Assembly: GCA_019456225.1 (NCBI GenBank)
Contig: VRUI01000016.1
Span: 1-64,000 of the forward strand
DNA length: 64,000 nucleotides
DNA from: Planctomycetota bacterium
Lineage (GTDB): Bacteria > Planctomycetota > Phycisphaerae > Sedimentisphaerales > Anaerohalosphaeraceae
Reading direction: 5' to 3'
The notes under the pieces: generated by a model
What the model was told of the DNA's origin: nothing
Database searches by the model: none
What the model saw: the letters and a program-made list of their open reading frames with translations, nothing else
Program-made: the position numbers and the translations under genes
In this document: one piece after another, positions 6,038-32,863 of the stretch
How positions within the stretch are numbered: the first letter of the stretch is position 1
Layout of the letters: each line of letters starts with the position of its first letter

Positions 6038-6211
6038 GCGCCCATTTTAGCAATATACGCCGAGTAAGTATACCAAAATATACCAATTCAAATGAAAAAT
6101 TGCAGCTGATGATGCAGCCTGTATGGTTTCATGTAAAGTGCGGTTTGAATGGTGTCGATATGGATTTGTGGTTTTAACTGACAATTTGTAATTATCCGGG
6201 GGGGATGCTTT

Positions 6212-7708
6212 TTGGGGTACTTGACGGCGAAATGCGGCCGATTTCTAGTGATACTGTCTTTGCTTGTGGTGGTCTTGCAGGGGTGCAGGCCTGTTGGGCC
6301 TGATTACGAGCGGCCTTTGACAGAGATGCCGGATATCTGGCAGCAGAAGGCTGTAAAGGGGCTTGAAAGCGGTGATGCCGACCTTGAGACGTGGTGGCAG
6401 ATTCTGAAAGATCCTGTTCTGGATAAACTTATCGCCCGTGCCGGTCATGGGAATCTGGAGCTTGAGCAGGCGTGGCGGAGGATCGAACAGGCCAGGGCGG
6501 ATCTTAGTTTTTCGAGAGGGAGACTTTATCCGAAAGTTGACGGGGTGGGGGATTATCAGCGGCTTCGGTTGAGCGATGATGGGACGTTCGGCGTTGACAA
6601 GTCGGGCAATTCGGGCAATATCAATCTACATAATCTCGGCGTCGATTCGGCGTGGGAGATCGACGTTTTCGGCAGGATAAGGCGGTCGGTCGAATCGTCT
6701 GAGGGGGTACTCGGGGCGTCTATTGAGGATTACCGCGATGTGCTGGTTTCCTTGTATGCGGAAGTTTCGCTTAACTATGTCGAATTTCGGGCGCTGGAAC
6801 TTCGGATAAAGCTGGCCGAGGCGAATATCGATTTGCAGAAGAAGACGCTCAAGCTTACGCAGGACCTTTTCAGGGCGGGGATAGTTCCGCAGCTGGATGT
6901 GCAGCAGGCAAAGCTTAACCTGGCTACGACAGAGTCGGCGATACCGCCGCTGAGATTTGGTAAGACGGCGGCGGCTAACCGGCTTTGCGTGCTGCTGGGG
7001 TTGATGCCGGGTGAAATTGATGAGCTATTGCAAAAGGAATACTCATTGCCAAAGCTGCCCGGGCGTGTTGTTGTCGATCTTCCTGTGGAGCTGCTTCGTC
7101 AGAGGCCTGATATTCGGCGTGCGGAAAGACGGCTGGCCGGACAGACGCCCTTGATAGGGGCGGCTACTGCGGAGTTGTATCCGATCTTTACGCTGACGGG
7201 GACATTCGTTTATCAGTCGCGCCAGCTTAACGGGCTTGTCAACCGGGGGAACAGAACATACAGTTATGGTCCAACATTCCAATGGAATTTATTCGACGGC
7301 GATCGGATCAGGAGCAGGATAAGATTTGAGGAGGCGCTGACGAAAGAGGTTTTCGCACAGTATGAAAATACGGTATTGCTTGCGATGGAGGAAGTTGAAA
7401 ATTCGATGACGGCGTATGTAGAGGAATACGACCGTAAGGATGCGTTGAAAAGATCGGTCGATGCATCTAAGGAATCTGTCGAACTGGTCGAGACGCTTTA
7501 TAAGACGGGGCTGACGGATTTCCAGAATGTACTCGACATGCAGCGGTCATTATTCAGTCAGCAGGACCAGCTTGCCGAAAGCGGGGGGAAACTGGTTCAG
7601 AGTCTTATACTGATTTACAAGGCGCTGGGCGGTGGATGGGGAGAAGAAGTGAAAAAAGCGAATATCCAATATCCAACACGGAATATCGAACAAGGAAGTA
7701 AAAGCTAA
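6212..7708 (+). CDS. RND efflux outer-membrane factor (TolC/OprM/NodT family lipoprotein)
   Basis: About 498 residues. The signal ends in a lipobox VVLQGC (Cys25), followed by RPVGPDYERP, typical of NodT/OprM lipoproteins. Long alpha-helical repeats (residues 75-260 and 300-480) form the trimeric outer-membrane channel, with the signature VVVDLPVELLRQRPDIRRAE in the middle. The start is probably TTG at 6212 behind a GGGGG run; no in-frame ATG precedes the signal peptide, so the start is uncertain. It is followed by the adaptor and pump genes. The last dozen codons (ANIQYPTRNIEQGSKS) are encoded by one arm of a dispersed inverted repeat, so the C-terminus looks rewritten by a repeat insertion. 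Confidence 0.88.
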   Translation: MGYLTAKCGRFLVILSLLVVVLQGCRPVGPDYERPLTEMPDIWQQKAVKGLESGDADLETWWQILKDPVLDKLIARAGHGNLELEQAWRRIEQARADLSFSRGRLYPKVDGVGDYQRLRLSDDGTFGVDKSGNSGNINLHNLGVDSAWEIDVFGRIRRSVESSEGVLGASIEDYRDVLVSLYAEVSLNYVEFRALELRIKLAEANIDLQKKTLKLTQDLFRAGIVPQLDVQQAKLNLATTESAIPPLRFGKTAAANRLCVLLGLMPGEIDELLQKEYSLPKLPGRVVVDLPVELLRQRPDIRRAERRLAGQTPLIGAATAELYPIFTLTGTFVYQSRQLNGLVNRGNRTYSYGPTFQWNLFDGDRIRSRIRFEEALTKEVFAQYENTVLLAMEEVENSMTAYVEEYDRKDALKRSVDASKESVELVETLYKTGLTDFQNVLDMQRSLFSQQDQLAESGGKLVQSLILIYKALGGGWGEEVKKANIQYPTRNIEQGSKS

Positions 7709-19764: not shown

Positions 19765-19872
19765 TTTGCAGTTGGTTAAATTTACTTGCCACCCGGAGTC
19801 ATATCCTCTATATTAGTCATTCTGTTTTGTTGCAGTGTTATTGTTACGACTAAATTTTTATGTGGAATAATA

Positions 19873-20496
19873 ATGAAACCAACTATTAAAATTGATATTG
19901 ATGAAGCATTAGATAAAGAGTTTGTCGAAGTTGAAGTCGGCTGCGGCAGGAAGAAGAAAGCCGGCCGTATTGGGATCGACATTTCCGATCTGCCCGGAGT
20001 CGATATTGTTGCCGATATTGAAGAAGGCCTTTCCTTTATTCCTGATTGCTCTGTAGATGCTGTTCATAGCCGAAGCGTCCTTGAGCATGTGAATAATTTT
20101 GAGGAATTAATGAGGGAGATCATCAGGGTTTTAAAGCCGGACGGAAAAGCTTATATTTATGTTCCTCATTTCTCGAGCCCATATTTCTATTCGGACTATA
20201 CTCATTGCCGGCCTTTTGGTTTGTATACGTTTTATTATTTTGTCAATACTGAGGATCAGCCGTCGCGAAAAGTTCCGGATTATTACAGCGATGTTAAGAT
20301 CAGGGTTACTCGTTTGCGTTTGAAATTCAGATCTTCGTTTAAAGTGTTGAATCCCTTCCGCAAACTTTTCGGCCGAATTATTAACCTTCATCCGAGGCTA
20401 CAGGAGTTTTACGAGGAAAATCTTTGTTACATGTTTCCTTGTCACGGTATCGAGGTTGTGTTTGAGCCGGTAAAATCTGCATGTGAGAGCGATTAA
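19873..20496 (+). CDS. SAM-dependent methyltransferase (class I)
   Basis: About 207 residues. EVEVGCGRKKKAGRIGIDIS is a short motif I, VHSRSVLEHVNNFEELMREIIRVLKPDGKAYIYVPH gives motifs III-IV with the usual LEH and KPDG, and an extended C-terminal part is rich in aromatic and basic residues. The ATG at 19873 is preferred; an earlier TTG at 19786 would add a hydrophobic, unrelated N-terminus. The gene opens the plus-strand glycan cluster and abuts the next gene (TAA then ATG). It probably methylates a sugar or another glycan part; the acceptor is unknown. Confidence 0.75.
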   Translation: MKPTIKIDIDEALDKEFVEVEVGCGRKKKAGRIGIDISDLPGVDIVADIEEGLSFIPDCSVDAVHSRSVLEHVNNFEELMREIIRVLKPDGKAYIYVPHFSSPYFYSDYTHCRPFGLYTFYYFVNTEDQPSRKVPDYYSDVKIRVTRLRLKFRSSFKVLNPFRKLFGRIINLHPRLQEFYEENLCYMFPCHGIEVVFEPVKSACESD

Positions 20497-21108
20497 ATGA
20501 AAAAGCTTTTTAATAAAATATTACGTAACTTTTTTCGTTCAAAGAAGAAGTTGTCTTTGCAGGAAAGGTATCCTCAGCACGAAATCGGCGTAGGTACATA
20601 CGGTCATGGCTTGAAGGTTCGCGGCTGGGATGAGGGGGCTAGATTGCGGATAGGCGCTTACTGCTCGATAGCCTCGGGTGTCAGGATATTTCTTGGCGGT
20701 GAGCATCGAATCGACTGGGTTACGACATACCCATTCAGCTGGATGTGGGATGAAGCTAAGGGGATCTCAGGTCATCCCAGGACTAAAGGCGATGTAGTTA
20801 TCGGCAATGATGTCTGGATCGGGTTTGAATCTGTAATACTGTCGGGGGTTACAATTGGAGACGGGGCGGTGATCGGAGCTCGTTCAGTAATTGTCAAAGA
20901 TGTCCCTCCCTACAGCATTGTCGGTGGAAATCCGGCTAAGTTTATAAAAAAACGTTTTGATGATGCAATAATTGAACGGCTTGTTAAGGTGAAATGGTGG
21001 GAGTGGGACCGTGATGAGATAGCCAAGGCTCTACCCTTGTTGCTGGCAAATGATATAGAGTCGTTTCTTGATTTTGCTGAGAATAAAGTATATCGCGAAG
21101 GTAAATGA
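20497..21108 (+). CDS. Hexapeptide-repeat O-acetyltransferase (CatB/WcaF-like)
   Basis: 203 residues. Left-handed beta-helix hexapeptide turns are visible at [21 protein letters not shown] and [39 protein letters not shown]. It ends in the xenobiotic-acetyltransferase-like [16 protein letters not shown] and a tryptophan-rich tail. The active-site histidine is probably in [14 protein letters not shown]. It should move acetyl from acetyl-CoA to a sugar hydroxyl. It starts directly after the previous stop, indicating an operon. It is not the FdtC-type N-acetyltransferase by my reading. Confidence 0.82.
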
Positions 21109-21215
21109 TTCTACCGTTTGTGTTGATTTTCATAGAGGCTGCAGTGTGTAAATTTCTAATTGATTGTCCATGAGTTCTTCTTGTGGAATGGTTCATTTTT
21201 AGTGTTGAGGTTTAT

Positions 21216-22364
21216 TTGTCAAATAACAAGATAAAAGTGGCATTGTTCTGGTCTTCTTATGTTGGCGAGGGTACGTCCTTTAATGAGTTGGCCAGGCGAT
21301 TGGACCCTGACCGATTTGAGTTGATCTTCATTTCTCTTAAAAAGCTGGATGGTGATCCTGATGGAGTGGACAAAAATGGTCACAGGGTTTATTATCTTTC
21401 GGGTGATCACAGAATCAATGCTTTAGAATTTGGTATTTTATGGAAACTGGTTAAGATTCTGAAATCAGAGAAAATTGACATTCTCCATGCTCATCGACAT
21501 AAGCCTTGCTTTTATGCGTCTATGTCGAGGTGTTTCATATCGATTCCGTTGGTTATAGCGCATATGCATGGCTTGAACAGGACAAAGAATTTTAAGAGAA
21601 AACTATTGAATAGGTTTATGTTTTCAAAGCTTGATAAAGTGATCGGATGTGCTAATAAAGTTTGTGAAGATATAAGGTTTGGCAATCCCGGCCTGGATGG
21701 TTGCAAAGTAGTAGCATTGGAGAATTCTGTTGATTATGAGAAGTATTCAGGAGCTGTTGCAGACGTCAAAGGTATTCGTACGGAATTGGGTGTGCCTGAG
21801 AATGCTTTTCTGTTTCTGGCAGTAGGGCGATTTGCCCCGACAAAAGGGTTTAAGTATTTGATAAAAGCATTTTCGGAAGTTCTGAAGGATAATCCAGGCT
21901 GTCATTTACTTATTGCAGGTGTTGGCAGGGATAAGGTAGAGATGGAAGAACTGGTAAAGAGCCTTGGTCTTGAAGATAGTGTTCATATGCCGGGCAGAAG
22001 GTCAGATATTCCGCAGTTGATGAAGGCATGCGATTGCTTTGTAATGAGTTCGATTGCTGAAGGTATGCCTTTGACGCTGCTTGAGGCGATGTCTTCCGGG
22101 CTGCCTTGTCTGGCAACGAGCGTAGGCGGGATACCAGAGCTTCTGGATAATGACGAAGTTGGCAAACTTGTCGAGCCGGGTGATGCAGGTGCGTTGGCAG
22201 GAGCGATGCTGGGCTATGCTGCGATGGGCAGTGAGGAGTTAGAACAAGTTGCAGAAAGTGCGAGTAAGCATGTCAAGGCGAATTTCAGTCATGAGGTTCT
22301 AGTAAAAAAACTACAGAAAATATATGAAGATGAATTAAGTAAGGCTAAAGTTTCCAAGGCTTAA
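21216..22364 (+). CDS. Glycosyltransferase family 4
   Basis: About 382 residues in a GT-B fold. The N-terminal domain begins IKVALFWSSYVGEGTSFNE. The C-terminal nucleotide-sugar domain has FLFLAVGRFAPTKGFKYLIKAF, HMPGRRSDIPQLMKACDCFV and the EX7E motif in SSIAEGMPLTLLEAMSSGLPC. The start is most likely TTG at 21216 with GAGG (21207-21210) 5 nt upstream; a GTG at 21183 is possible. It is a cytoplasmic glycan-assembly transferase using an activated sugar of unknown kind, retaining mechanism by family. Confidence 0.88.
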   Translation: MSNNKIKVALFWSSYVGEGTSFNELARRLDPDRFELIFISLKKLDGDPDGVDKNGHRVYYLSGDHRINALEFGILWKLVKILKSEKIDILHAHRHKPCFYASMSRCFISIPLVIAHMHGLNRTKNFKRKLLNRFMFSKLDKVIGCANKVCEDIRFGNPGLDGCKVVALENSVDYEKYSGAVADVKGIRTELGVPENAFLFLAVGRFAPTKGFKYLIKAFSEVLKDNPGCHLLIAGVGRDKVEMEELVKSLGLEDSVHMPGRRSDIPQLMKACDCFVMSSIAEGMPLTLLEAMSSGLPCLATSVGGIPELLDNDEVGKLVEPGDAGALAGAMLGYAAMGSEELEQVAESASKHVKANFSHEVLVKKLQKIYEDELSKAKVSKA

Positions 22365-22374
22365 GGAGAAAGCA

Positions 22375-22779
22375 ATGAGTTTAAGTGATTGCAAGATAAT
22401 TGATTTGCCCAAGATAGAAGATCACCGTGGCAATCTTACTTTTATTGAGCAGAACGAACATATTCCATTTGATATAAAACGCGTTTATTATCTTTATGAC
22501 GTCCCAGGCGGTGGTGTTCGCGGCGGTCATGCCCATAAAGCACTGCATCAGTTTATAATCGCGGCGAGCGGAAGTTTTGACGTAGTCTTGAATGACGGTA
22601 AAGAACAGCAGCGGCACCATCTGAACAGGTCTTATTATGGTTTGTATCTTCCACCGATGACTTGGAGGGAATTGGATAATTTTTCTTCAGGATCAGTATG
22701 TCTTGTGTTGGCATCTGAGCCATACGGTGAAGAAGATTATATTCGGGATATTGATGAATTTTATAATGAAACAAGTTAA
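22375..22779 (+). CDS. fdtA: dTDP-4-keto-6-deoxyglucose 3,4-ketoisomerase-type cupin (FdtA/QdtA family)
   Basis: 134 residues, the length of FdtA/TylM3-type sugar ketoisomerases. Single cupin with DHRGNLTFIEQNEHIPF near the start and the conserved VRGGHAHKALHQF (about 48-60) carrying the catalytic histidines H52 and H54. It should turn dTDP-4-keto-6-deoxyglucose into the 3-keto isomer. Next to it lie an N-formyltransferase and a DegT-family aminotransferase, the set needed for dTDP-3-amino-3,6-dideoxyhexose and its N-formyl form. Gal versus Glc stereochemistry (FdtA versus QdtA) is not decidable. The gene is 10 bp behind its upstream neighbour, with AAGGAG before the ATG. Confidence 0.85.
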   Translation: MSLSDCKIIDLPKIEDHRGNLTFIEQNEHIPFDIKRVYYLYDVPGGGVRGGHAHKALHQFIIAASGSFDVVLNDGKEQQRHHLNRSYYGLYLPPMTWRELDNFSSGSVCLVLASEPYGEEDYIRDIDEFYNETS

Positions 22780-22816
22780 GTTCTGGTTGTGAAAGTTTTT
22801 TGGGGATTAGAGACTT

Positions 22817-23638
22817 ATGTTGACAATATGTGTAGCGGGAAAAAATGATATAGCATCTAATACCTTAAGTTATCTTTGTAATCATTTTGGTCAATATCGA
22901 ATTATCGCATTGCCAAACAAGAATGATTGCGGAAAAGATACATGGCAAAAATCTCTTCGTTTTGCATCAAATAAACTGGGTGTTGATGTTTTTGACCGGA
23001 TGGAAGATTTATTTCCATTAGAGGATTTTATTTTTCTATCTCTTGAATTTGATAAGATTATTAAAGTTGAGGATTTTGTTAGTAATCGGCTTTATAATAT
23101 ACATTTTTCAAAACTACCACAATACAGGGGTATGTTTACTTCGGCTTTGCCAATACTTCATGGAAAGCAATCAAGCGGAGTAACTCTTCATGTCATAGAT
23201 AACGGTATTGATACAGGCGATATAATCGACCAGATGGAATTTCCGATAGAGTGTGATGACACTGCCAGAGATTTGTATTTAAAATACAACGAATATGCGT
23301 TTGAGGTTTTAAAGAATAACATTGAGAGTTTGATTGATAATACATATAAACAGTTACCCCAAGATAGTTTTGGAGCGACTTATTATTCAAAAAGTTCTAT
23401 AGATTACAGTTACCTGGACGTTGACTTTAACAAGACAGCGTTTGAAGTTTGCAATCAGATTAGAGCTTACAGTTTCAAAGAGTATCAGTTACCGTCTGTT
23501 TTTGGTTTCCAGATCAGTAATTCTGCAATTACTGGTAACCGCAGTAAAGGCAAGCCTGGGACTCTGGTTGATGAAAATACTAATTTATTGATGGTGTCAA
23601 CAATTGATTATGACGTTGAACTGTCCATTTGTTCGTAG
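22817..23638 (+). CDS. Sugar N-formyltransferase
   Basis: 273 residues. The formyltransferase catalytic triad is intact: NIHFSKLPQYRGM (N94, H96) and GIDTGDII (D132). SGVTLHVIDNG is the flanking family signature. It is shorter than methionyl-tRNA formyltransferase and lacks that enzyme's usual C-terminal domain. It resembles sugar formyltransferases such as VioF, QdtF and FdtF, which use N10-formyltetrahydrofolate. Placed between an FdtA-type ketoisomerase and an FdtB-type aminotransferase, it most likely makes dTDP-3-formamido-3,6-dideoxy-hexose. The rmlA and rmlB genes that would supply the precursor are not in this window. Confidence 0.82.
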   Translation: MLTICVAGKNDIASNTLSYLCNHFGQYRIIALPNKNDCGKDTWQKSLRFASNKLGVDVFDRMEDLFPLEDFIFLSLEFDKIIKVEDFVSNRLYNIHFSKLPQYRGMFTSALPILHGKQSSGVTLHVIDNGIDTGDIIDQMEFPIECDDTARDLYLKYNEYAFEVLKNNIESLIDNTYKQLPQDSFGATYYSKSSIDYSYLDVDFNKTAFEVCNQIRAYSFKEYQLPSVFGFQISNSAITGNRSKGKPGTLVDENTNLLMVSTIDYDVELSICS

Positions 23639-23701
23639 GTTAGATTCATACATGTATAGAGTTTCAGCTACATATAAATTACCAATAGATCGCATTTGAT
23701 T

Positions 23702-24799
23702 ATGATGAAATTTCTTGAATTAAAAAAAGTTAACCACAGATATGAGTCTAGTATACGGGAGGCTTTGGGCCGCGTTATCGATTCGGGCTGGTATTTGCTG
23801 GGTAAAGAGATCGAGGCTTTTGAGGCAGAATTTGCAGATTATTGTGGCGCGAGACATGCAATTGGTGTTGGTAGTGGTTTAGATGCACTTGCACTCATTA
23901 TTAAGGCTTATGGTTTTGGTCCGGGTGATGAGATAATTGTTCCGGCAAATACATTTATTGCGACCGTTCTTGCGGTGACGATGTGTGGGGCTGAACCTAT
24001 TTTTGTTGAGCCTGATGAGCGAAATTACCTGATCGATGTCAAAAAGATCGCGGAAAAGATCACGTCTCGTACAAAGGCGATTATGCCAGTCCATTTGTAT
24101 GGTCAGGCATGCGATGTGGCGAGCATTTGTTCGTTTGCAGAGAAGCATGGACTTAAGGTTATTGATGATGCAGCCCAGGCGCATGGTACTACGCTTTTGA
24201 AAAGCTTTGATCCGGTGGATTTCCAAGGTCGTGCTGCAGGGTATAGTTTTTATCCCGGTAAGAATTTGGGTGCATTGGCCGATGCAGGAGCAGTTGTTAC
24301 AAATGACGCTGATCTTGCTGAGAAAATTAAGGCACTTAGGAATTATGGTTCACATGAAAAGTATTACAATAAATATGTTGGTTCAAACAGCAGGATGGAT
24401 GAGTTTCAGGCTGCGATATTGAGTATTAAATTGAGGGGGCTTGATGAGGATAACGCAGCTCGACGTAAGACAGCAAATTATTACCTTAAAGCAATCATTA
24501 ATGATAATGTGATTCTTCCAGGAGTTCCTGAGAATGCGGGAGATCATGTGTGGCACCTGTTTGTTGTGCGGTCAAAAAAACGCGATGCCCTGAAGGATTA
24601 TCTTGAAGAAAATGGTATTCAGAGTCAGATACATTATCCAGTTCCGCCTCATAAGCAGGAATGTTACCCTCAATATAACGGCTTGTCTTTTACTATCGCA
24701 GAACGGTTAGCCGATGAAGTACTTAGTTTGCCGATATCACCTGTGATGAAAGAAGTAGAAGCTGCGAAAGTTGTCGAGGTGATCAATGCTTTCAAATGA
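23702..24799 (+). CDS. fdtB: PLP-dependent sugar aminotransferase (DegT/DnrJ/EryC1; FdtB/QdtB-like)
   Basis: About 365 residues. The DegT fold is clear: [56 protein letters not shown], and [21 protein letters not shown] with the PLP lysine in YPGKNLG. The [13 protein letters not shown]-type motif is characteristic of the 3-keto-sugar aminotransferases FdtB, QdtB and TylB rather than the 4-aminating group. It should use glutamate to aminate the product of the adjacent ketoisomerase. Starts at 23702 and 23705 are both possible. The last codons overlap the next gene by 14 nt. Confidence 0.85.
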
Positions 24800-26090
24800 G
24801 CGGCCTTTGGTGTCTGTTATCGTACCATATTATAACGGCAGAAAGCACATTAGAGAGGCTTTAGAGTCGGTCCTTGGGCAGACGTACGATAATGTTGAGA
24901 TCGTAGTCGTTGATGACGCCTCACCTGATAAACAGGATTCTGAGTACATAAAAAAGCTTTCCAAAGAGATTGGGTTTCAGCTTATAAGGCATGAAAGCAA
25001 TAAGGGGATTGGGCAAACCCTGGCCGATGCTGTCGAAGTTTGCAGCGGTGAGTATATTGCCGAGCTTTCGCAGGACGATCTTTATATGCCTGATAAGATC
25101 GAAAGACAGGTATGCGAGCTAAGAACTAAGAATCTTGACGCGGTTTACGTTGGCGGCGATGTTATGTATGCTCAAAGCGGTAAGGTTATGAAACGCGACC
25201 TGGGAAAAACGAAAAAAACAGTTGATTCAGGTGCGGCGTTTGGAATGTTAAAACTTAAAAATCTTTCCGGTATTTCGATACAGGGACTGCTCGCGAAACG
25301 GTCAGTATTCCAGGACGACATTATTGGTATTTGGAGGGACTATCTTCTTGACGACTGGCCGGTAAATATTCGGTTGTTTGATAAATATAAAGTCGGTTTT
25401 ATCGATGAATCCCTCTGGAGATTGAGGATTCATGATAGTAATACAAGCCATAATATTTGGAAATGGTTAGGTCCTCAGATAGAGGTTGTTGCACGAATGG
25501 CAGGGGAAGACCATAGAGTGGAGCGTATCGGTGACCGTGTCGCGAGCATGGCTCGGCGATTACGTAAACAGAACGGGGATGTCGATGCGACTGTCCGTTT
25601 CGCTTTTGCGGGGATGGTTCTGACGGATTTGCCTCAACAACAAATAAAAGTACGGCGAGTTTTAAACAAAATTTCATCCAGGCACAAGAGGGCAATTGCA
25701 AAATCAAAGTGCCGGATCCTTGAAGATGCAATAAAGTGTAAAAGCGAAAAGCCAATTTCGGAAAAAACAGGAAATATCAGCTGGGAAGGGCTTGGAAAGG
25801 CTCTTTCCTGTGCGGTTGCGGATTTTCAGGGCCGCGACAGGCTCAATGAAATATCCCAGGTTTTCTTTGAGTTTGCGAAATATGTTTATTCCAGCAATCA
25901 ATCGTCACCTGACTGTGCAGTTAGATTCGCTCTTGCGGCACTGATGCTTACAAGTGATTCCAACGATGAACGCAAAGTCACGCAGTTTGTCGAAGTAGTT
26001 TCGCAAAAGAACTGCGAGATAATTGAAAACAAGCGTAAAGCCATTCGCTCAGGGTGCAGGCGAACGATTAGAAGTCTTTGGCTTAATTAG
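24786..26090 (+). CDS. Glycosyltransferase family 2 with long C-terminal extension
   Basis: 434 residues. The N-terminal GT-A domain shows [31 protein letters not shown] and the metal-binding region [18 protein letters not shown] (QDD in place of DxD). The second half (about 240-434) has no glycosyltransferase motifs; it is basic and helical, and its [16 protein letters not shown] / [15 protein letters not shown] blocks look like an internal duplication. The function of that half is unknown. The start overlaps the aminotransferase gene, so translation is coupled. Confidence 0.8.
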
Positions 26091-26164
26091 GCAATACATG
26101 TTTATGTGGTTGAGACAGTCGAATTAAAAATTCATAATAGGGTTTGTGTATATAAGGAGTTTTG

Positions 26165-27115
26165 ATGGTTTTTCTTAGGCTCATGGGTGGTATGGGAAAT
26201 CAAATGTTTCAGTATGCCATGGCAAGGACTTTGTGTTTAAAGAATGGCAATGAACTGATCATTGATCCTTCGTTGCTCAGTGACAATGAAAGTATGAATT
26301 CTGCGGGGCTTTCTTTAAGGTCTTATGCGCTTGATGTTTTTGATATTCCGGCTCAAATTACAGATAGCCAGCCTGTTCAAAAAGTTCTGAAGGTCAGAAG
26401 GCAGGACAAGTTAAAAAAAGCGGCTGCGATTTTGTTTTGCTCGATCGCAAATAAGTTTTCAGGCTCATGGATGGTTGGTATTGTTGAAAGAAAAAAAGTG
26501 GGATTCGATAAGAGTCTATTGAATCTGCCGTCAGAAGTATATCTTCAGGGTTATTTCCCAAGCTATAAATATTTTGTAGATTCTGAAGAAGTAATTCGGA
26601 AAGAATTTGCTTTTAATGTAGAACCTGGTCAGCAGAATCGTAAAATTATAGATATGATCTCATCCTCTAATTCCGTTAGTTTACATGTCAGGCGTGGAGA
26701 TTATGTTTCTAATGAAAAAACGAAGGATAAATTTGGCGTTTGTAGTCTTGAGTATTATAAAAGGGCAGTCGATTATATCTCAAAGAATGTTGAGCAGCCG
26801 CATTTTTTTGTTTTCACGAATGACCTTGATTATGTAGAGGATAATCTGGAAATCAATTGCCCAGCAACGTTTGTGACTGAAAATAGCGGCAGTAAAAGCT
26901 TTGAAGATATGCGTTTGATGAGTCTTTGTAAACATAATATAATAGCCAATAGCTCATTTAGCTGGTGGGGTGCGTGGCTGAATAAGAACCCGGAAAAGAT
27001 TGTAATATGTCCTTCGCCTGCATTTGATAAGCTGGATATCAGAGATGAAGATTTTTATCCTGAGGATTGGGTGAGTCTCCCTAAAGGAAAACAGGTTGTT
27101 GAGCAGCCTGAATAG
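26165..27115 (+). CDS. Alpha-1,2-fucosyltransferase-type glycosyltransferase (GT11)
   Basis: About 316 residues. The family signatures are MGGMGNQMFQYAMAR at the N-terminus, SLHVRRGDYVS (the HxRRGD donor-binding motif) and IIANSSFSWWGAWLN. GT11 enzymes transfer L-fucose from GDP-fucose in alpha-1,2 linkage to a glycan. No fucose-nucleotide synthesis genes are in the window. The ATG at 26165 has AAGGAG (26154-26159) at a good distance. Family assignment is firm; the acceptor is unknown. Confidence 0.9.
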   Translation: MVFLRLMGGMGNQMFQYAMARTLCLKNGNELIIDPSLLSDNESMNSAGLSLRSYALDVFDIPAQITDSQPVQKVLKVRRQDKLKKAAAILFCSIANKFSGSWMVGIVERKKVGFDKSLLNLPSEVYLQGYFPSYKYFVDSEEVIRKEFAFNVEPGQQNRKIIDMISSSNSVSLHVRRGDYVSNEKTKDKFGVCSLEYYKRAVDYISKNVEQPHFFVFTNDLDYVEDNLEINCPATFVTENSGSKSFEDMRLMSLCKHNIIANSSFSWWGAWLNKNPEKIVICPSPAFDKLDIRDEDFYPEDWVSLPKGKQVVEQPE

Positions 27116-27152
27116 TTTTTTATGCAAATAATCAACAAGATAGGAGTTTATC

Positions 27153-27914
27153 GTGAATTACTTAAAAAGTCTTTATCGTTATTACAGGGAATCTCAGAAA
27201 AAAAGAGGACGTAAGCGGAAAGCTGAGCGTCAGAAAGAAAAGATGAAATCGTTTTATGTTCAATTTATCAAGCCGGGGCAGATATGTTTTGATATTGGCG
27301 CTAATATGGGAAACCGCGCTGAGGTTTTTCTAGAACTAGGAGCTAGGGTTGTTTCGGTCGAACCACAGGAAGAATGTTGCAAGCATTTGGATAATAGATT
27401 TGGCGATAATGCAAACTTTATTCTGATTAACAAGGCTCTTGATAAAGTCCGAGGTCAGCAGGAGTTTTTTATTAGTAATGCTAGTACTCTTTCGTCTATG
27501 TCATCTGAATGGATCGGATTTGCAAAAAAACATGAGCCATTTCAGGGTAGCAATTGGGATACAAAGGTTTTGGTAGAAACAACGACATTGGATGATCTGA
27601 TTTCAGAAAATGGTGTACCGGTGTTTTGTAAGATTGATGTCGAGGGATTTGAGTACAATGTTTTGCAGGGTCTATCCAAACAGATTCCTTTCATATCTTT
27701 TGAGTTTACATCAGGCCTTATCGAATCTACAGTTAAGTGCATTAATCATTTGAATGAAATTAGTATGATGGAGTTTAATTATTCTATAGGCGAATCAATG
27801 GTATTTGAGCTGCCAGAATTTATTTCAAGCGAACAGATTATTGACGTTGTAAAGGGCTTGGGGTTGTCAGGTGTTGCAGGGGGCGATATTTATGCAAGAG
27901 AGTGTCGTTCTTAA
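27153..27914 (+). CDS. FkbM-family methyltransferase
   Basis: 253 residues. A highly basic N-terminus (KKRGRKRKAERQKEK) precedes the SAM fold with CFDIGANMGNRAEVFLELGARVVSVEPQ, then TTTLDDLISENGVPVFCKIDVEGFEYNVLQG, the FkbM hallmark. Members are O-methyltransferases of sugars and polyketides. The start is GTG at 27153 behind AGGAG. Substrate unknown, probably a glycan hydroxyl in this cluster. Confidence 0.87.
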   Translation: MNYLKSLYRYYRESQKKRGRKRKAERQKEKMKSFYVQFIKPGQICFDIGANMGNRAEVFLELGARVVSVEPQEECCKHLDNRFGDNANFILINKALDKVRGQQEFFISNASTLSSMSSEWIGFAKKHEPFQGSNWDTKVLVETTTLDDLISENGVPVFCKIDVEGFEYNVLQGLSKQIPFISFEFTSGLIESTVKCINHLNEISMMEFNYSIGESMVFELPEFISSEQIIDVVKGLGLSGVAGGDIYARECRS

Positions 27915-28013
27915 AAAGCGAACATTGAAATTACTTATTGTGTCAAACTACCGAACGGGTTAAAATATTTTATAGAGTTTTGTAATGGTTTTAAATGAAA
28001 GCTGATTTTAATA

Positions 28014-28028
28014 AACTGATAATCAGTT
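28014..28028. promoter_or_regulatory. Palindrome overlapping a -35 box
   Basis: AACTGAT-A-ATCAGTT is a perfect 7+7 inverted repeat. Its last two bases are the first two of the TTGACT -35 candidate at 28027. This is the placement expected of an operator, but no regulator is encoded nearby. Confidence 0.35.
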
Positions 28029-28056
28029 GACTTATTTGAGCTCGACATTTTATTTT
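28027..28056 (+). promoter_or_regulatory. Promoter candidate inside the first glycan cluster
   Basis: TTGACT (28027-28032), 18 nt, TATTTT (28051-28056). It stands about 30 nt before the methyltransferase start at 28087, within the widest gap of this cluster (about 170 bp). An alternative is TTGTGT-17-TAAAAT at 27938-27966. Confidence 0.35.
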
Positions 28057-28086
28057 TATGAAGTGATTACTAGTGAAAGGTTGTAA

Positions 28087-28758
28087 ATGGGCGACATTAA
28101 TCAATACTACTATATAGAAAGTAATTCGGATTTATTTGAAGGGCCTTTTTTGGAGATCGGCTCTAAGGACTATGGTAACACCCAGGATTTGCGTCCGCTG
28201 TTTAAAGACAAAGGTGATTACACGGGAACTGATATGTTCAGCGGGAAAGGCGTCGATATTGTTCAGGATATGACAGTTGATTTCGACAGATTGAGTGAAG
28301 TCTTTGATAATAAGCGTTTTGGTACAATATTTTGCCTGAGCGTTCTTGAGCATTGCGAAAATCCGTTCAAGATGGCAGAGAATATTACGCGATTATTAAA
28401 GCCGGGCGGGCATATCGTGTTATCGGTTCCGTTCTGCTGGCAGATACATGGTTACCCGCAAGATTTCTGGAGATTTACTCCTCAAGGGATCAAGAAGCTG
28501 TTTTCGGAAATTGATTTTATCGACGAAAAGAGCCTGGCTTGCACATCGAGGCCAAATGATTTCCGCAAAATAGACGAAGAACTGACCAAAATAACATTTA
28601 GCTATACGGCTCACAAGAAAGATGGGAATTTAGTTCGTGCGGTATCGGCTAAACTATTGAAAATGCTCTCCAAGGTTGGCGTTTTGAAATGGCTTACAGG
28701 CTACCGGTATCTTTTCCCCGCGACGAATATATTTGCGATTGGGAAAGTTAAGAAATAG
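28087..28758 (+). CDS. SAM-dependent methyltransferase (type 11)
   Basis: 223 residues. PFLEIGSKDYGNTQDL is the motif I variant, FGTIFCLSVLEHCENPFKMAENITRLLKPGGHIVLSVPF gives motifs II-IV, and DFWRFTPQGIKKLF is common in glycan-cluster methyltransferases. AAAGG precedes the ATG. It follows a 172-bp gap with its own promoter candidates, so it may begin a sub-operon. Acceptor unknown. Confidence 0.8.
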   Translation: MGDINQYYYIESNSDLFEGPFLEIGSKDYGNTQDLRPLFKDKGDYTGTDMFSGKGVDIVQDMTVDFDRLSEVFDNKRFGTIFCLSVLEHCENPFKMAENITRLLKPGGHIVLSVPFCWQIHGYPQDFWRFTPQGIKKLFSEIDFIDEKSLACTSRPNDFRKIDEELTKITFSYTAHKKDGNLVRAVSAKLLKMLSKVGVLKWLTGYRYLFPATNIFAIGKVKK

Positions 28759-28792
28759 AATCAGTTGTAATTTTAACGGGCACTGCTGAGAA

Positions 28793-29776
28793 TTGAATTT
28801 ACTTGTAATATCAAATAATCCTGATCGGCCTAGTTATCGGCAGCGGTTTGGGGTTTATATTGGGCGGCTTTATGACGTGGGGATTGAGGCTGAGGTTGTT
28901 GTTTTGCCTAAGGGGATATTGTCTCGCTGGCGGTTGTTTCGGCGGGCTGGCTCATTCGATGGGGTTTTTCTGCATAAGAAGCGTTTGAATTTTTTCGACG
29001 CTTTCTTTCTTCGGATGTTTTCGCGTAAGATCATCTATGATTTTGATGACGCTATTATGTATGACGATAAACGGCCTGGCAGGGGGAGCTCTAAGCGGCT
29101 GATGGATTTTGCGCGGACCGCTAAACTTGCTGATGTTGTGGTCGCAGGCAACAAGTACCTTGCTGAGCATGCTTTGAAATATAACAGTAATGTTGAAGTG
29201 CTGGCTACGGGGCTTGATGTTGGTGCTTACGATATAGACGCTGAGAGAGTTGATGGCGGCAAAGTCAGGCTTGTCTGGATCGGCAGTAAGAGTACTCTTA
29301 TGTATCTGGAGGGTTTAAGAGAGGTGCTTGAGGAGATTGGCAGGCGATATGATAATGTTGTTTTGCGGATCATTTGCGATGCGTTTCTTGATCTGGAGAA
29401 TATGGAAGTTGAAAAAGTTGACTGGGCATTAGAGTCGCAGTCGCGACAACTGCGAGAAAGCGATATTGGGCTTGCTCCTCTTACGGATGACAATTTTACC
29501 CGCGGCAAATGCGGGTTTAAGATCCTGCAGTATATGGCCGCGTCCTTGCCGGTTGTTGCCAGTCCTGTTGGGGTTAATGGGGATTTAATTAATGATGAGG
29601 CGGCTGGTTTGACCGCAGAAACGCCTGAGGAGTGGATTGCGGCATTAAATAAGCTTATTGCCGATAAGGATATTAGAGGCAGGATGGGTAAAACAGGACG
29701 AGATGGTGTTGGTGAGTTTGGTTTGGGGGTTATTGGCGGGGAATTAGTGAATATTATCAAAAAGACGTTAGAGTAG
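28793..29776 (+). CDS. Glycosyltransferase family 4
   Basis: 327 residues. The start is TTG at 28793, in LLVISNNPDRPSYRQRFGVY. IIYDFDDAIMYDDKRPGR and ADVVVAGNKYLAEHA mark the GT4 N-domain. The C-domain has VRLVWIGSKSTLMYLEGL, DIGLAPLTDDNFTRGKCGFKILQYMAASLPVVASPVG, where EX7E is replaced by the KCGFKILQYM form seen in a known subgroup. Shorter than average GT4. Sugar specificity is unknown. Confidence 0.82.
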   Translation: MNLLVISNNPDRPSYRQRFGVYIGRLYDVGIEAEVVVLPKGILSRWRLFRRAGSFDGVFLHKKRLNFFDAFFLRMFSRKIIYDFDDAIMYDDKRPGRGSSKRLMDFARTAKLADVVVAGNKYLAEHALKYNSNVEVLATGLDVGAYDIDAERVDGGKVRLVWIGSKSTLMYLEGLREVLEEIGRRYDNVVLRIICDAFLDLENMEVEKVDWALESQSRQLRESDIGLAPLTDDNFTRGKCGFKILQYMAASLPVVASPVGVNGDLINDEAAGLTAETPEEWIAALNKLIADKDIRGRMGKTGRDGVGEFGLGVIGGELVNIIKKTLE

Positions 29777-29875: not shown

Positions 29876-29904
29876 TTGACCGTGGGGCATGAGTGTGCTA
29901 TTCT
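29876..29904 (+). promoter_or_regulatory. Sigma70-type promoter candidate for the ABC exporter
   Basis: TTGACC (29876-29881), 17 nt, TATTCT (29899-29904). Initiation near 29911 leaves a short leader before GGAG at 29927-29930. It suggests the exporter is also transcribed separately from the glycan genes. Confidence 0.5.
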
Positions 29905-29936: not shown

Positions 29937-32114
29937 ATGTCCAGAAAAAAAGATGATTTGACCGCTTTTTGGCGGGTTTTTAAGTATGTTTGGCCTCAGT
30001 GGCCAAGGATTGTTGCTGTCGTATGCGTTGTTTTTGTAATCGCGGTGCTTTTTGCGCTTAGCTTTATGACGATCGGGCCGCTGCTTAAAGTTATGATGGG
30101 TGAGGAGGGAATCCACGGCTGGGTCGACAGGAAGATTTGTGACAGCCGGTATGGTATGGATTTCTATGTGCCTAAACTTTCGGATTTCACGGAAGACGGC
30201 AAATCCGATGTTGCTTCTTATCTTCAGATCACCAGCGTTGACAGCAAAGGGCTTGCGTCAGTTGCAGGGCTGAAATTACAAGATAAGATAATCGGGTTTG
30301 GTGACAGAGTTCCTGACGGGGAAATAAGTGTTTCATCGGCTGTACTTCTTGAAAAGTTGGCCAAGGCTGAATCTGTTGACAAGATCGATCTGCTGGTAAT
30401 AAGGGATAGTAACTTAGGGCGACCTACAGAGATGACGGTTTCTCTTGAAGTTCCTGAACTGAAAGGTTTTCAGGGCTGGGTGATAGACAGAGTGCAAAGT
30501 TCGATGAAATTCGTACCCAGGGGGCAGTCTCAAACAACAAAGCGTAAGGCGATTATTTTCATAATACTTGTTATGGCTGTTGTTACTACGATACGATGTT
30601 TTGCGAGATTCGTTCAGAATTACCTTGCCGAAAAAATTGTGCAAACGGCTATAGCTGAAGTCCGGCAGGATTGCTTCGCTAAGGTTATGGATATGCCTGT
30701 GGGACGTTTTTCTCATCAAGGTACCAGTGATACCACAAGCAGGATTGTCGGAGATACGGCTGCTGCTGCGAGAGGCGTTAAAATATTGCTCGGTAAAGCC
30801 CTGCGTGAGCCAATGAAGGCTATTGCGGTTCTAGCCGGTGCAATGTTTATCAGCCCGAAATTGTGTTTGATCTTTCTTGCTATGGCACCGGTTACGATAG
30901 GGCTGTTTGGGGTACTTGGCAAGCGAATAAGAAAGGCTACGATGAAGTCTCTGGTGAGCAGTGCCAGAATGCTCGGCAGGGTGACAGGTGTCGTAAATGC
31001 TTTGAAAGTGGTTAAGGTTTATAATAATCAGGAGCGAGAGGCAGAGCATTATCGTGGTATTAATAACCGGTTGCTCAGGCATACTCTTAGAATTGCAAAA
31101 GTGCAGGCAATGACCAATCCCCTGATGGAAGTTATGGGTATGATCGCCGGTTCTGCCGCACTGCTCGTTGGTATATATTGGGTTACCAGTCCGGGCAGTA
31201 ATATTAAGCCCAGTGATTTTCTTACTCTGCTGGTATTGCTTGGTACTGCCGCTGAGTCTATTCGTAAGGTCAGTGATGTCTGGAATAAACTTCAGGGCGC
31301 CAATGCGGCGTCTGAGAGGGTGTTTGAGATTATCGATGTTCCGAGTGAGCCTGAAAAAGCAGATGCTGTCGAACTTGTGCCTCTGCATGAAAGCATTGAG
31401 TTTAGAGATATTGTATTTACCTATCCCGGAAACGAAACAACAACTCTTAAGGGTGTAAGTCTTACGGTTAAAGCCGGTGAGACGGTAGCGGTTGTCGGGC
31501 CTAACGGTTCGGGAAAAACCACACTCATAAACCTGATCCCGAGATTTTATGAGCCGGATTCGGGTTCGATACTGATCGACGGCAAGGAGATCGTCGACGG
31601 CACTCTGAAAAGTCTTCGCGCCCAAATCGGTATGGTTACCCAGAATGTTGTGACGTTCAACGAGTCGGTTGCGGCGAATATCGGCTATGGCAAGCAGGAA
31701 GCTCACATTGACGAGGTCATCGAGGCTGCAAAGCGTTCTCATGTTCATGAGTTTATCGAGCCGCTGCCGGATGGATATGATACTGTGATCGGTGAAAACA
31801 ATGCAGGTTTTAGCGGCGGCCAGCTCCAGCGGATCGTTATCGCAAGGGCGATCATTAAGAATCCAGAGATACTGATTTTCGATGAGGCTATGAGCCAGAT
31901 CGACGCTGACAGTGAGGCGAAGATCAATGCAGCATTGAAAGGGCTTATGACCAACAGGACCTGCTTCATTATCGCGCACAGATTCAGCACGGTGATATCG
32001 GCTGACCGGATCGTGGTCATGGACGAAGGTAAGGTCTCGGCGATGGGCACGCATGATGAGCTGATGGAAAAGAGCCCCCTTTATCGCGGTCTCTACGAAA
32101 CACAACTGATGTAG
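29937..32114 (+). CDS. MsbA-like ABC exporter with a PDZ-like domain in the first periplasmic loop
   Basis: 725 residues. TM1 is at about 26-48. Instead of the short TM1-TM2 loop of MsbA there are about 150 residues (50-200); within them, 88-172 read as a PDZ domain, with LQITSVDSKGLASVAGLKLQ then DKIIGFGDRVPDG, LLEKLAKA and DKIDLLVIRDS. TM2 begins near 205. The nucleotide-binding domain is complete: Walker A GPNGSGKTTL (521-530), signature FSGGQLQR (625-632), Walker B ILIFDE (645-650) and H-loop His681. It should be a homodimeric lipid or lipid-linked glycan flippase. The ATG at 29937 has GGAG 6 nt upstream; an ATG 5 codons upstream is less likely. It closes the plus-strand cluster. Confidence 0.88.
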   Translation: MSRKKDDLTAFWRVFKYVWPQWPRIVAVVCVVFVIAVLFALSFMTIGPLLKVMMGEEGIHGWVDRKICDSRYGMDFYVPKLSDFTEDGKSDVASYLQITSVDSKGLASVAGLKLQDKIIGFGDRVPDGEISVSSAVLLEKLAKAESVDKIDLLVIRDSNLGRPTEMTVSLEVPELKGFQGWVIDRVQSSMKFVPRGQSQTTKRKAIIFIILVMAVVTTIRCFARFVQNYLAEKIVQTAIAEVRQDCFAKVMDMPVGRFSHQGTSDTTSRIVGDTAAAARGVKILLGKALREPMKAIAVLAGAMFISPKLCLIFLAMAPVTIGLFGVLGKRIRKATMKSLVSSARMLGRVTGVVNALKVVKVYNNQEREAEHYRGINNRLLRHTLRIAKVQAMTNPLMEVMGMIAGSAALLVGIYWVTSPGSNIKPSDFLTLLVLLGTAAESIRKVSDVWNKLQGANAASERVFEIIDVPSEPEKADAVELVPLHESIEFRDIVFTYPGNETTTLKGVSLTVKAGETVAVVGPNGSGKTTLINLIPRFYEPDSGSILIDGKEIVDGTLKSLRAQIGMVTQNVVTFNESVAANIGYGKQEAHIDEVIEAAKRSHVHEFIEPLPDGYDTVIGENNAGFSGGQLQRIVIARAIIKNPEILIFDEAMSQIDADSEAKINAALKGLMTNRTCFIIAHRFSTVISADRIVVMDEGKVSAMGTHDELMEKSPLYRGLYETQLM

Positions 32115-32181: not shown

Positions 32182-32203
32182 ATTTAAAAGTCTCCTTTTA
32201 AAT
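32182..32203. repeat. AT-rich inverted repeat between convergent genes
   Basis: ATTTAAAAG-tctc-CTTTTAAAT, a perfect 9+9 inverted repeat, lies at the convergent ends of the ABC exporter and the unknown gene at 32198, overlapping the latter's stop region. It might act as a weak bidirectional terminator, but it has no GC stem. Confidence 0.4.
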
Positions 32204-32863
32204 GGGTATATCTCCTGAACTTACATCAATGTCCAGTATCTGCGGGGCGGATACTGGCTGACCGAAACGAGTTGACTGAAGACGCTGAAGTTCATGTATG
32301 GCTTTGTAGAGGGTTTTGTCAATCTGGCCCTTGTAGCGGTGGAGCCTTTCCAGCAGATTTTCTGAAGTAAAATCTGCAACCACTGCCTGGCCCAATTTCA
32401 GATCGTTTGGTTCTGGCGAGTCATCCCGTGAATCATTATCTGGTGTTTTTGCAGGTTCATCTTCGACAGGATATTCATTCTTGCCGGGTAGACCGGTGTA
32501 TGTTTTTGTGAAATGTACGATAAAGGGCAAAGAGTTTTTGCCCTTTGAAACCGATTTGGGAGTAAACATGCTGTTTAGCATCTCGACCTCGATTCGGCCT
32601 GCGCGGTTTAGACGCCAAAATGAAGCGGCTATCCGATTTGTGAGCAGCTGTTCCAGGATGCCGACCGGCTGAAATGAATCTGTCATGAGGTTACGGAAAT
32701 CGGCAAACTCCTGGGCGTTTTCATCTTTGATAACCACATGGCTTGACAACAGGCCGTGGGTAGTAGCATTTTTCGAGGAGATTAACTTGCCCTCGGTGGT
32801 CTTCGGTCCGGTTGATTTAAGGGCATTATTTCTGTTGGCTTCTATTTGTTTATCACTAATCAT
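32198..32863 (-). CDS. Protein of unknown function with 'NNALKSTGPKTTEGK' N-terminus
   Basis: 221 residues. The N-terminus (SDKQIEANRNNALKSTGPKT then EGKLISSKNATTHGLLS) is the signature of a widespread family of unknown function, common in planctomycetes and acidobacteria and often multicopy. The middle is helical and basic (RIAASFWRLNRAGRIEVEML). An acidic, proline-rich linker follows at about 125-155. LLERLHRYKGQIDKTLYKAIHELQRLQ forms a C-terminal helical motif. There is no signal peptide and no catalytic motif. The family resemblance is from memory. It stands alone between the two glycan clusters. Confidence 0.65.
   Translation of the reverse strand: MISDKQIEANRNNALKSTGPKTTEGKLISSKNATTHGLLSSHVVIKDENAQEFADFRNLMTDSFQPVGILEQLLTNRIAASFWRLNRAGRIEVEMLNSMFTPKSVSKGKNSLPFIVHFTKTYTGLPGKNEYPVEDEPAKTPDNDSRDDSPEPNDLKLGQAVVADFTSENLLERLHRYKGQIDKTLYKAIHELQRLQSTRFGQPVSAPQILDIDVSSGDIPI

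Follow-up and report, generated by a model that had tools for sequence, protein, structure and literature searches.

An HtrA-type PDZ domain in the TM1-TM2 loop of an MsbA-like ABC exporter of the Phycisphaerae

A single reading frame in the 64,000-nucleotide stretch of planctomycete DNA analyzed here (the window) had been read, from its letters alone, as an MsbA-like ABC exporter with a PDZ domain inserted between its first two transmembrane helices, and the locus raises the question of whether such an arrangement is genuine and, if so, what a PDZ domain might do in a probable lipid pump. The features to which we refer are as follows.

19786..29776, + strand: upstream glycan genes (methyltransferases, hexapeptide transferase, GT4, formyltransferase, DegT aminotransferase, GT2, GT11, FkbM methyltransferase and GT4)
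29937..32114, + strand: PDZ-bearing MsbA-like ABC exporter, a half-transporter of 725 residues (Pfam, NCBIfam, orthologues)
29979..30098, + strand: TM1, helical at residues 15-54 in the model, with a hydrophobic core at 25-43
30084..30152, + strand: juxtamembrane segment, residues 50-72, motif KVMMxxEGLHGW, where conservation within the protein is highest
30153..30449, + strand: HtrA-type PDZ domain, residues ~73-171 (profiles, fold model, fold matches)
30450..30530, + strand: linker and pre-TM2 helix, residues 172-198 (model helix 178-190; 23% mean identity)
30531..31361, + strand: remainder of the transmembrane domain, residues 199-475 (ABC_membrane 199-436; model helices)
31362..32111, + strand: nucleotide-binding domain (NBD), residues 476-725 (ABC_tran 504-652)

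Positions 29937-32114 encode one intact half-size ABC exporter, MsbA-like, with a PDZ domain in the TM1-TM2 loop. The frame runs uninterrupted from ATG to TAG; an alternative in-frame ATG lies upstream at 29889, and the family alignment places the starts of relatives near 29937. ABC_membrane (7.6e-33, 114.8 bits, cut-off 28) is followed in the same chain by ABC_tran (2.7e-35, 122.4 bits, cut-off 25), both above the Pfam cut-offs and in the order that marks a type IV ABC exporter, and the complete exporter claimed in the sequence-only reading is borne out. The Walker A (GPNGSGKT, 521-528), signature (SGGQ, 626-629), Walker B (ILIFDE) and H-loop (H681) motifs of the NBD are invariant or nearly invariant in an alignment of 42 sequences; the full-length model is of moderate quality (pLDDT 74.8). 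The earlier reading had also raised the possibility that a sequencing frame problem joins two separate genes. We rejected this artefact, in which a frame error or chimera would fuse two genes, one for an exporter and one for a PDZ protein; nothing spoke in its favor, and we give it a negligible probability. Of 40 relatives, 38 have an orthologue, nearly all full length, and the identical fusion recurs across dozens of assemblies of independent origin, in several cases on single-contig chromosomes. The gene is absent from the assemblies of the relatives G007 and G015; the latter assembly, 99% complete and with LpxK, has as its best exporter a protein of about 597 residues that is 26% identical. 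The genome from which the window is drawn contains a single copy of the PDZ exporter together with one paralogue (34% identical, 572 residues) that has no insert, and some genomes (G099, G120, G130 and others of family f11) contain two PDZ-bearing exporters.

In type IV exporters, whose topology is established, the TM1-TM2 loop faces the periplasm, and it should therefore be extracytoplasmic here as well. In 44 PDZ-bearing exporters a median of about 156 residues separates the hydrophobic core of TM1 from that of TM2, in agreement with the loop of about 150 residues first noted from the letters; the corresponding figure is 18 for E. coli MsbA and 11 for the paralogue from the same genome. In nine exporters of the class that have no PDZ domain the spacing is 44-63, so that the loop of this class amounts to some 50 residues even without the domain; the model and this comparison together place the PDZ domain inside a class-type loop, flanked by two juxtamembrane helices. 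At this site, an exporter of a planctomycete that does not belong to the class (L193, G360:C1:109863-111470) has another kind of insert, coiled-coil-like, which makes the TM1-TM2 loop a recurrent insertion point, and the loop of these exporters tolerates the insertion of whole domains.

The domain within the loop is a genuine PDZ domain, of the HtrA/DegQ type, and occupies residues of about 73-171. Taken alone, the window protein matched Pfam PDZ_2 weakly (E 0.02-0.18; 15.4 bits, below the gathering score of 27), and its own sequence was rejected as proof; evidence was therefore sought from the family. Single-sequence Pfam scans of 42 aligned inserts returned PDZ_2 in 29 (best E 2.7e-7), PDZ_6 in 26 and PDZ in 24, so that the profile search proposed earlier succeeds for the family and fails for the window protein by itself. 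A profile of the insert family matched the PDZ domains of DegQ, DegP and site-2 proteases in the PDB (best 2.5e-9), and profile-profile alignment (hhalign) with PDZ1 of E. coli DegP, DegQ and DegS gave 97.6% (E 4e-12). An AlphaFold2 model of residues 50-206 (pLDDT 86.5, pTM 0.79) adopts the PDZ fold, as the sequence-only reading had anticipated while allowing that the loop might not fold in this way, and the predicted order of strands and helices is that of the HtrA type. When the model was compared with known structures by Foldseek and VIA-align, the matches listed were HtrA, Ctp, site-2-protease and other PDZ chains throughout, with Z scores of up to 8.0 over 74-95 aligned residues and DegS, DegQ and DegP PDZ domains nearest; a Z of 8 is by itself middling, and the claim is carried by the uniformity of the list, which does not exclude families beyond it, together with the sequence evidence. 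The domain proposed from the letters thus stands, with its limits moved from the residues 88-172 originally given. At the position of the HtrA carboxylate-binding loop, matched by position and not by structural alignment, a hydrophobic-G-hydrophobic motif is found in 35 of 42 sequences within the order and in 8 of 19 from other orders, and a basic residue precedes it in 37 of 42 and 19 of 19, respectively; this pattern, weaker outside the order, hints at a putative peptide groove.

The fusion extends well beyond close relatives. An insert profile matched 184 of 298 genomes of the class Phycisphaerae at 1e-8; the stronger matches cover the whole insert and lie in frames of about 700-800 residues, whereas part of the weaker ones may reflect a PDZ domain alone. 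Among 392 genomes sampled across the phylum, no match from outside the class spanned the start of the insert, and the few weak ones were PDZ cores in other frames. All named matches come from Planctomycetota; most bear the label Phycisphaerae or Sedimentisphaerales, and one that of Blastopirellula. The same insert, which the earlier reading had proposed to look for in other planctomycetes, is thus widespread, and in the genomes sampled the PDZ exporter is restricted to the class Phycisphaerae. In a tree built on the shared exporter core, with the insert left out, the PDZ-bearing exporters group with the MsbA-like exporters of the class that have no PDZ domain (support 0.993), a placement that points to vertical descent; a related PDZ-less clade exists within the class. 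Two independent gains of the domain were considered and rejected: the free tree needs two changes, yet a single PDZ-bearing clade is not rejected (AU p 0.68), and the tree constrained to one such clade scored higher than the free tree. A single gain is compatible with these data.

Conservation within the protein is uneven and directs attention to a segment that had escaped the sequence-only reading. Mean identity to the window protein is 75% in residues 50-72, 67% in the NBD, 52% in the rest of the membrane domain, 32% in the PDZ domain and 23% in the linker. Across several families of the class, E57 and G58 are each retained in 61 of 61 sequences, H60 in 57 and W62 in 60; H60 and W62 are missing from the PDZ-less relatives, which argues that the helix and the PDZ domain behave as one inherited module. 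The EGLHGW helix leads directly into the position of the HtrA carboxylate-binding loop, and it is nearly fixed while the surface of the adjoining PDZ domain drifts. Within close pairs, the domain is under purifying selection (omega mostly 0.05-0.28, with a single pair at 0.65), and its low overall conservation does not imply a fixed ligand. This pattern lends some credit to the main rival of the reading that we prefer, in which the PDZ domain would be a ligand-free structural lid on the outward gate or on its dimer twin, steadying the TM1-TM2 wing and binding no peptide. The drift of domain and linker beside a nearly fixed helix fits such a role, as do the incomplete carboxylate-loop motif in other orders and the presence of unrelated sequence, for example a coiled coil, at the same site in other planctomycetes. 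However, a lid has no need of a PDZ fold, and that fold is retained in most of the order along with the basic-hydrophobic-G-hydrophobic motif; we regard the passive lid as a possibility of the lesser sort, well short of an even chance.

The nature of the pump itself can be stated more firmly than the job of its loop. The best NCBIfam model is TIGR02203, MsbA (1.5e-135), at 452.9 bits against an equivalog cut-off of 602, and the protein is accordingly filed as MsbA-like and not as MsbA; the cut-off was passed in none of 25 genomes of the order, and missing it says little against an MsbA-like mode of working. LpxK was found in 25 of 25 and LptF/G in 23 of 25 genomes of relatives, identifying hosts with lipid A and Lpt components; in about half of the relatives the PDZ exporter is the sole match to the MsbA model at 1e-80, and a heptose/LPS core operon in the genome of the window includes lpxK, hldE, waaF-like and waaP-like genes. 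In the window, the exporter is the last gene of a glycan run, and the proposal that it closes a glycan cluster holds for this locus, but this context is local and not a fixed home: one set of relatives has the exporter directly after rmlACDB (about 16 loci) and ahead of glycosyltransferases, another has a metallo-beta-lactamase gene and a GH130 gene on either side of it, and in other families of the class it is located after holB. A gene that is nearly always present while its neighbors change is more in keeping with a housekeeping lipid flippase than with an exporter dedicated to one glycan cluster, and rml or glycosyltransferase neighbors fit LPS. The promoter candidate credited to the gene was not upheld; 4 sites were found, among them the sigma-70-like one at 29876-29904, against 4.2 expected by chance. 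Downstream, on the opposite strand, a gene for a 221-residue protein (32198-32863) has no Pfam matches.

These neighborhoods bear on a second alternative, that the protein flips an undecaprenyl-linked glycan, as PglK does, and not lipid A, with the EGLHGW helix corresponding to the external helix of PglK and the PDZ domain docking a glycan ligase or polymerase. It draws on the glycan cluster in the window, on the rmlACDB loci and on the helix that PglK possesses between TM1 and TM2. Against it, the PglK model scores 195.8 bits (cut-off 1000), far below the MsbA score, the gene adjoining the exporter in other orders is holB and not a glycan gene, and the exporter is often the sole MsbA-like gene where LpxK and LptF/G are present; we consider the glycan reading unlikely. 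The protein is most likely the MsbA-type lipid A-core flippase of the Phycisphaerae, a substrate assignment that we infer, and this role for the exporter is likely even where the partner and task of its PDZ domain are more conjectural.

We suggest, with confidence only a little better than even, that the locus encodes an MsbA-type lipid exporter whose helix-PDZ module docks an envelope protein and couples flipping to the next step. An MsbA-type transport cycle is established for the family, and the present protein would work through a similar cycle, probably as a homodimer. Its TM1-TM2 loop would form one inherited module, composed of the EGLHGW juxtamembrane helix, the HtrA-type PDZ domain and the second helix before TM2. 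The conserved helix may lie at the membrane surface beside the outward gate and keep the PDZ domain there; it may itself act in flipping, by analogy with PglK, in which an additional TM1-TM2 helix is able to contact the lipid tail and has been implicated in flipping (PMC4900756, PMC9000953). The PDZ domain, in turn, would dock an envelope protein in the periplasm by its terminus or by a strand that lies exposed, and docking would couple flipping to the step that follows; the suggestion in the sequence-only reading that the domain could couple export to a periplasmic partner is plausible in this light. A more specific form of the proposal, in which the docking module is built into the lipid A flippase of the class and the flippase is physically passed to a periplasmic partner protein, or gated by it, through a peptide tail, is put forward more tentatively, well below an even chance. 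Docking of an envelope protein remains our first choice. Against the reading as a whole stand the missed MsbA cut-off in the order, the low conservation of the PDZ domain, the weakening of the carboxylate-loop motif in other orders, the two assemblies that lack the gene, the PDZ-less clade of the class and the moderate full-length model. A further possibility is that the PDZ domain serves as an envelope stress sensor in the manner of DegS or AlgW, binding the C-termini of stray outer membrane proteins and throttling or boosting LPS export. The nearest folds are indeed the PDZ domains of DegS, DegQ and DegP, and a published account describes the PDZ domain of AlgW as sensing the C-termini of outer membrane proteins (PMC8545111), but likeness of fold says nothing of ligand or specificity, and we think this role improbable, more so than glycan flipping.

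Candidates for the docked partner were considered. A conserved partner gene next door was rejected, as the neighbors differ between families, and the extra periplasmic domain of LptF was rejected because it occurs in both PDZ-bearing and PDZ-less members of the class, with no correlation; thus, no conserved partner was identified among neighbor genes or through the LptF comparison.

Each element of the protein has precedents. Like the lipid A-core flippase MsbA (E. coli b0914, TIGR02203), it is a half-size type IV exporter, with intact ATPase motifs and an alignment that runs from TM2 through the complete NBD; it differs in the length and PDZ content of its loop, in its shortfall from the MsbA cut-off (453 versus 602 bits) and in that its gene does not adjoin lpxK. 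PglK, a lipid-linked oligosaccharide flippase, likewise has an extra membrane-surface helix between TM1 and TM2, but this is a short helix only, without a PDZ domain. The HtrA proteases DegS, DegP and DegQ share the strand and helix order of the domain (PDZ1), whereas the exporter has no protease domain and holds its PDZ domain inside a transporter loop. RseP and other site-2 proteases also place periplasmic PDZ domains between transmembrane helices of an inner membrane protein, but they are intramembrane proteases with tandem PDZ domains and without ABC domains. The PDZ domain and the ABC exporter are each known, and their combination was not seen described in the literature searched: no paper was found that combines the two, a search from which subscription papers were mostly missing, so that absence is not proof; the terms "ABC" and "transporter" occur nowhere in the main text of a survey of 7,852 microbial PDZ proteins (PMC6411480), and neither MsbA nor PDZ is mentioned in a previous genome-based study of the outer membrane in planctomycetes (PMC3422733).

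In E. coli, flipping and the later steps of outer membrane assembly are treated as separate, and we know of no protein contact that accounts for the way in which a flipped lipid reaches the next export step. The docking proposal, if true, would provide a direct protein link between the two, and a flippase that brings a periplasmic docking domain of its own, conserved throughout a class, would serve as bait for the partner and as a means of addressing how flipping and export are coupled. The design itself, a pump that probably flips an outer membrane lipid and bears a PDZ domain on its outer face, is common to much of the class Phycisphaerae.

Two minor observations were made elsewhere in the same genome. 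Its LptF (L197:3147-4859, G000:C47) has about 570 residues, of which some 180-200 are extra periplasmic residues outside Pfam coverage, and two adjacent proteins (L197:5124-5918 and 6185-6943) share the tail PVPGAFLLxGIGVACVGWMKRRR, which resembles a C-terminal sorting signal.
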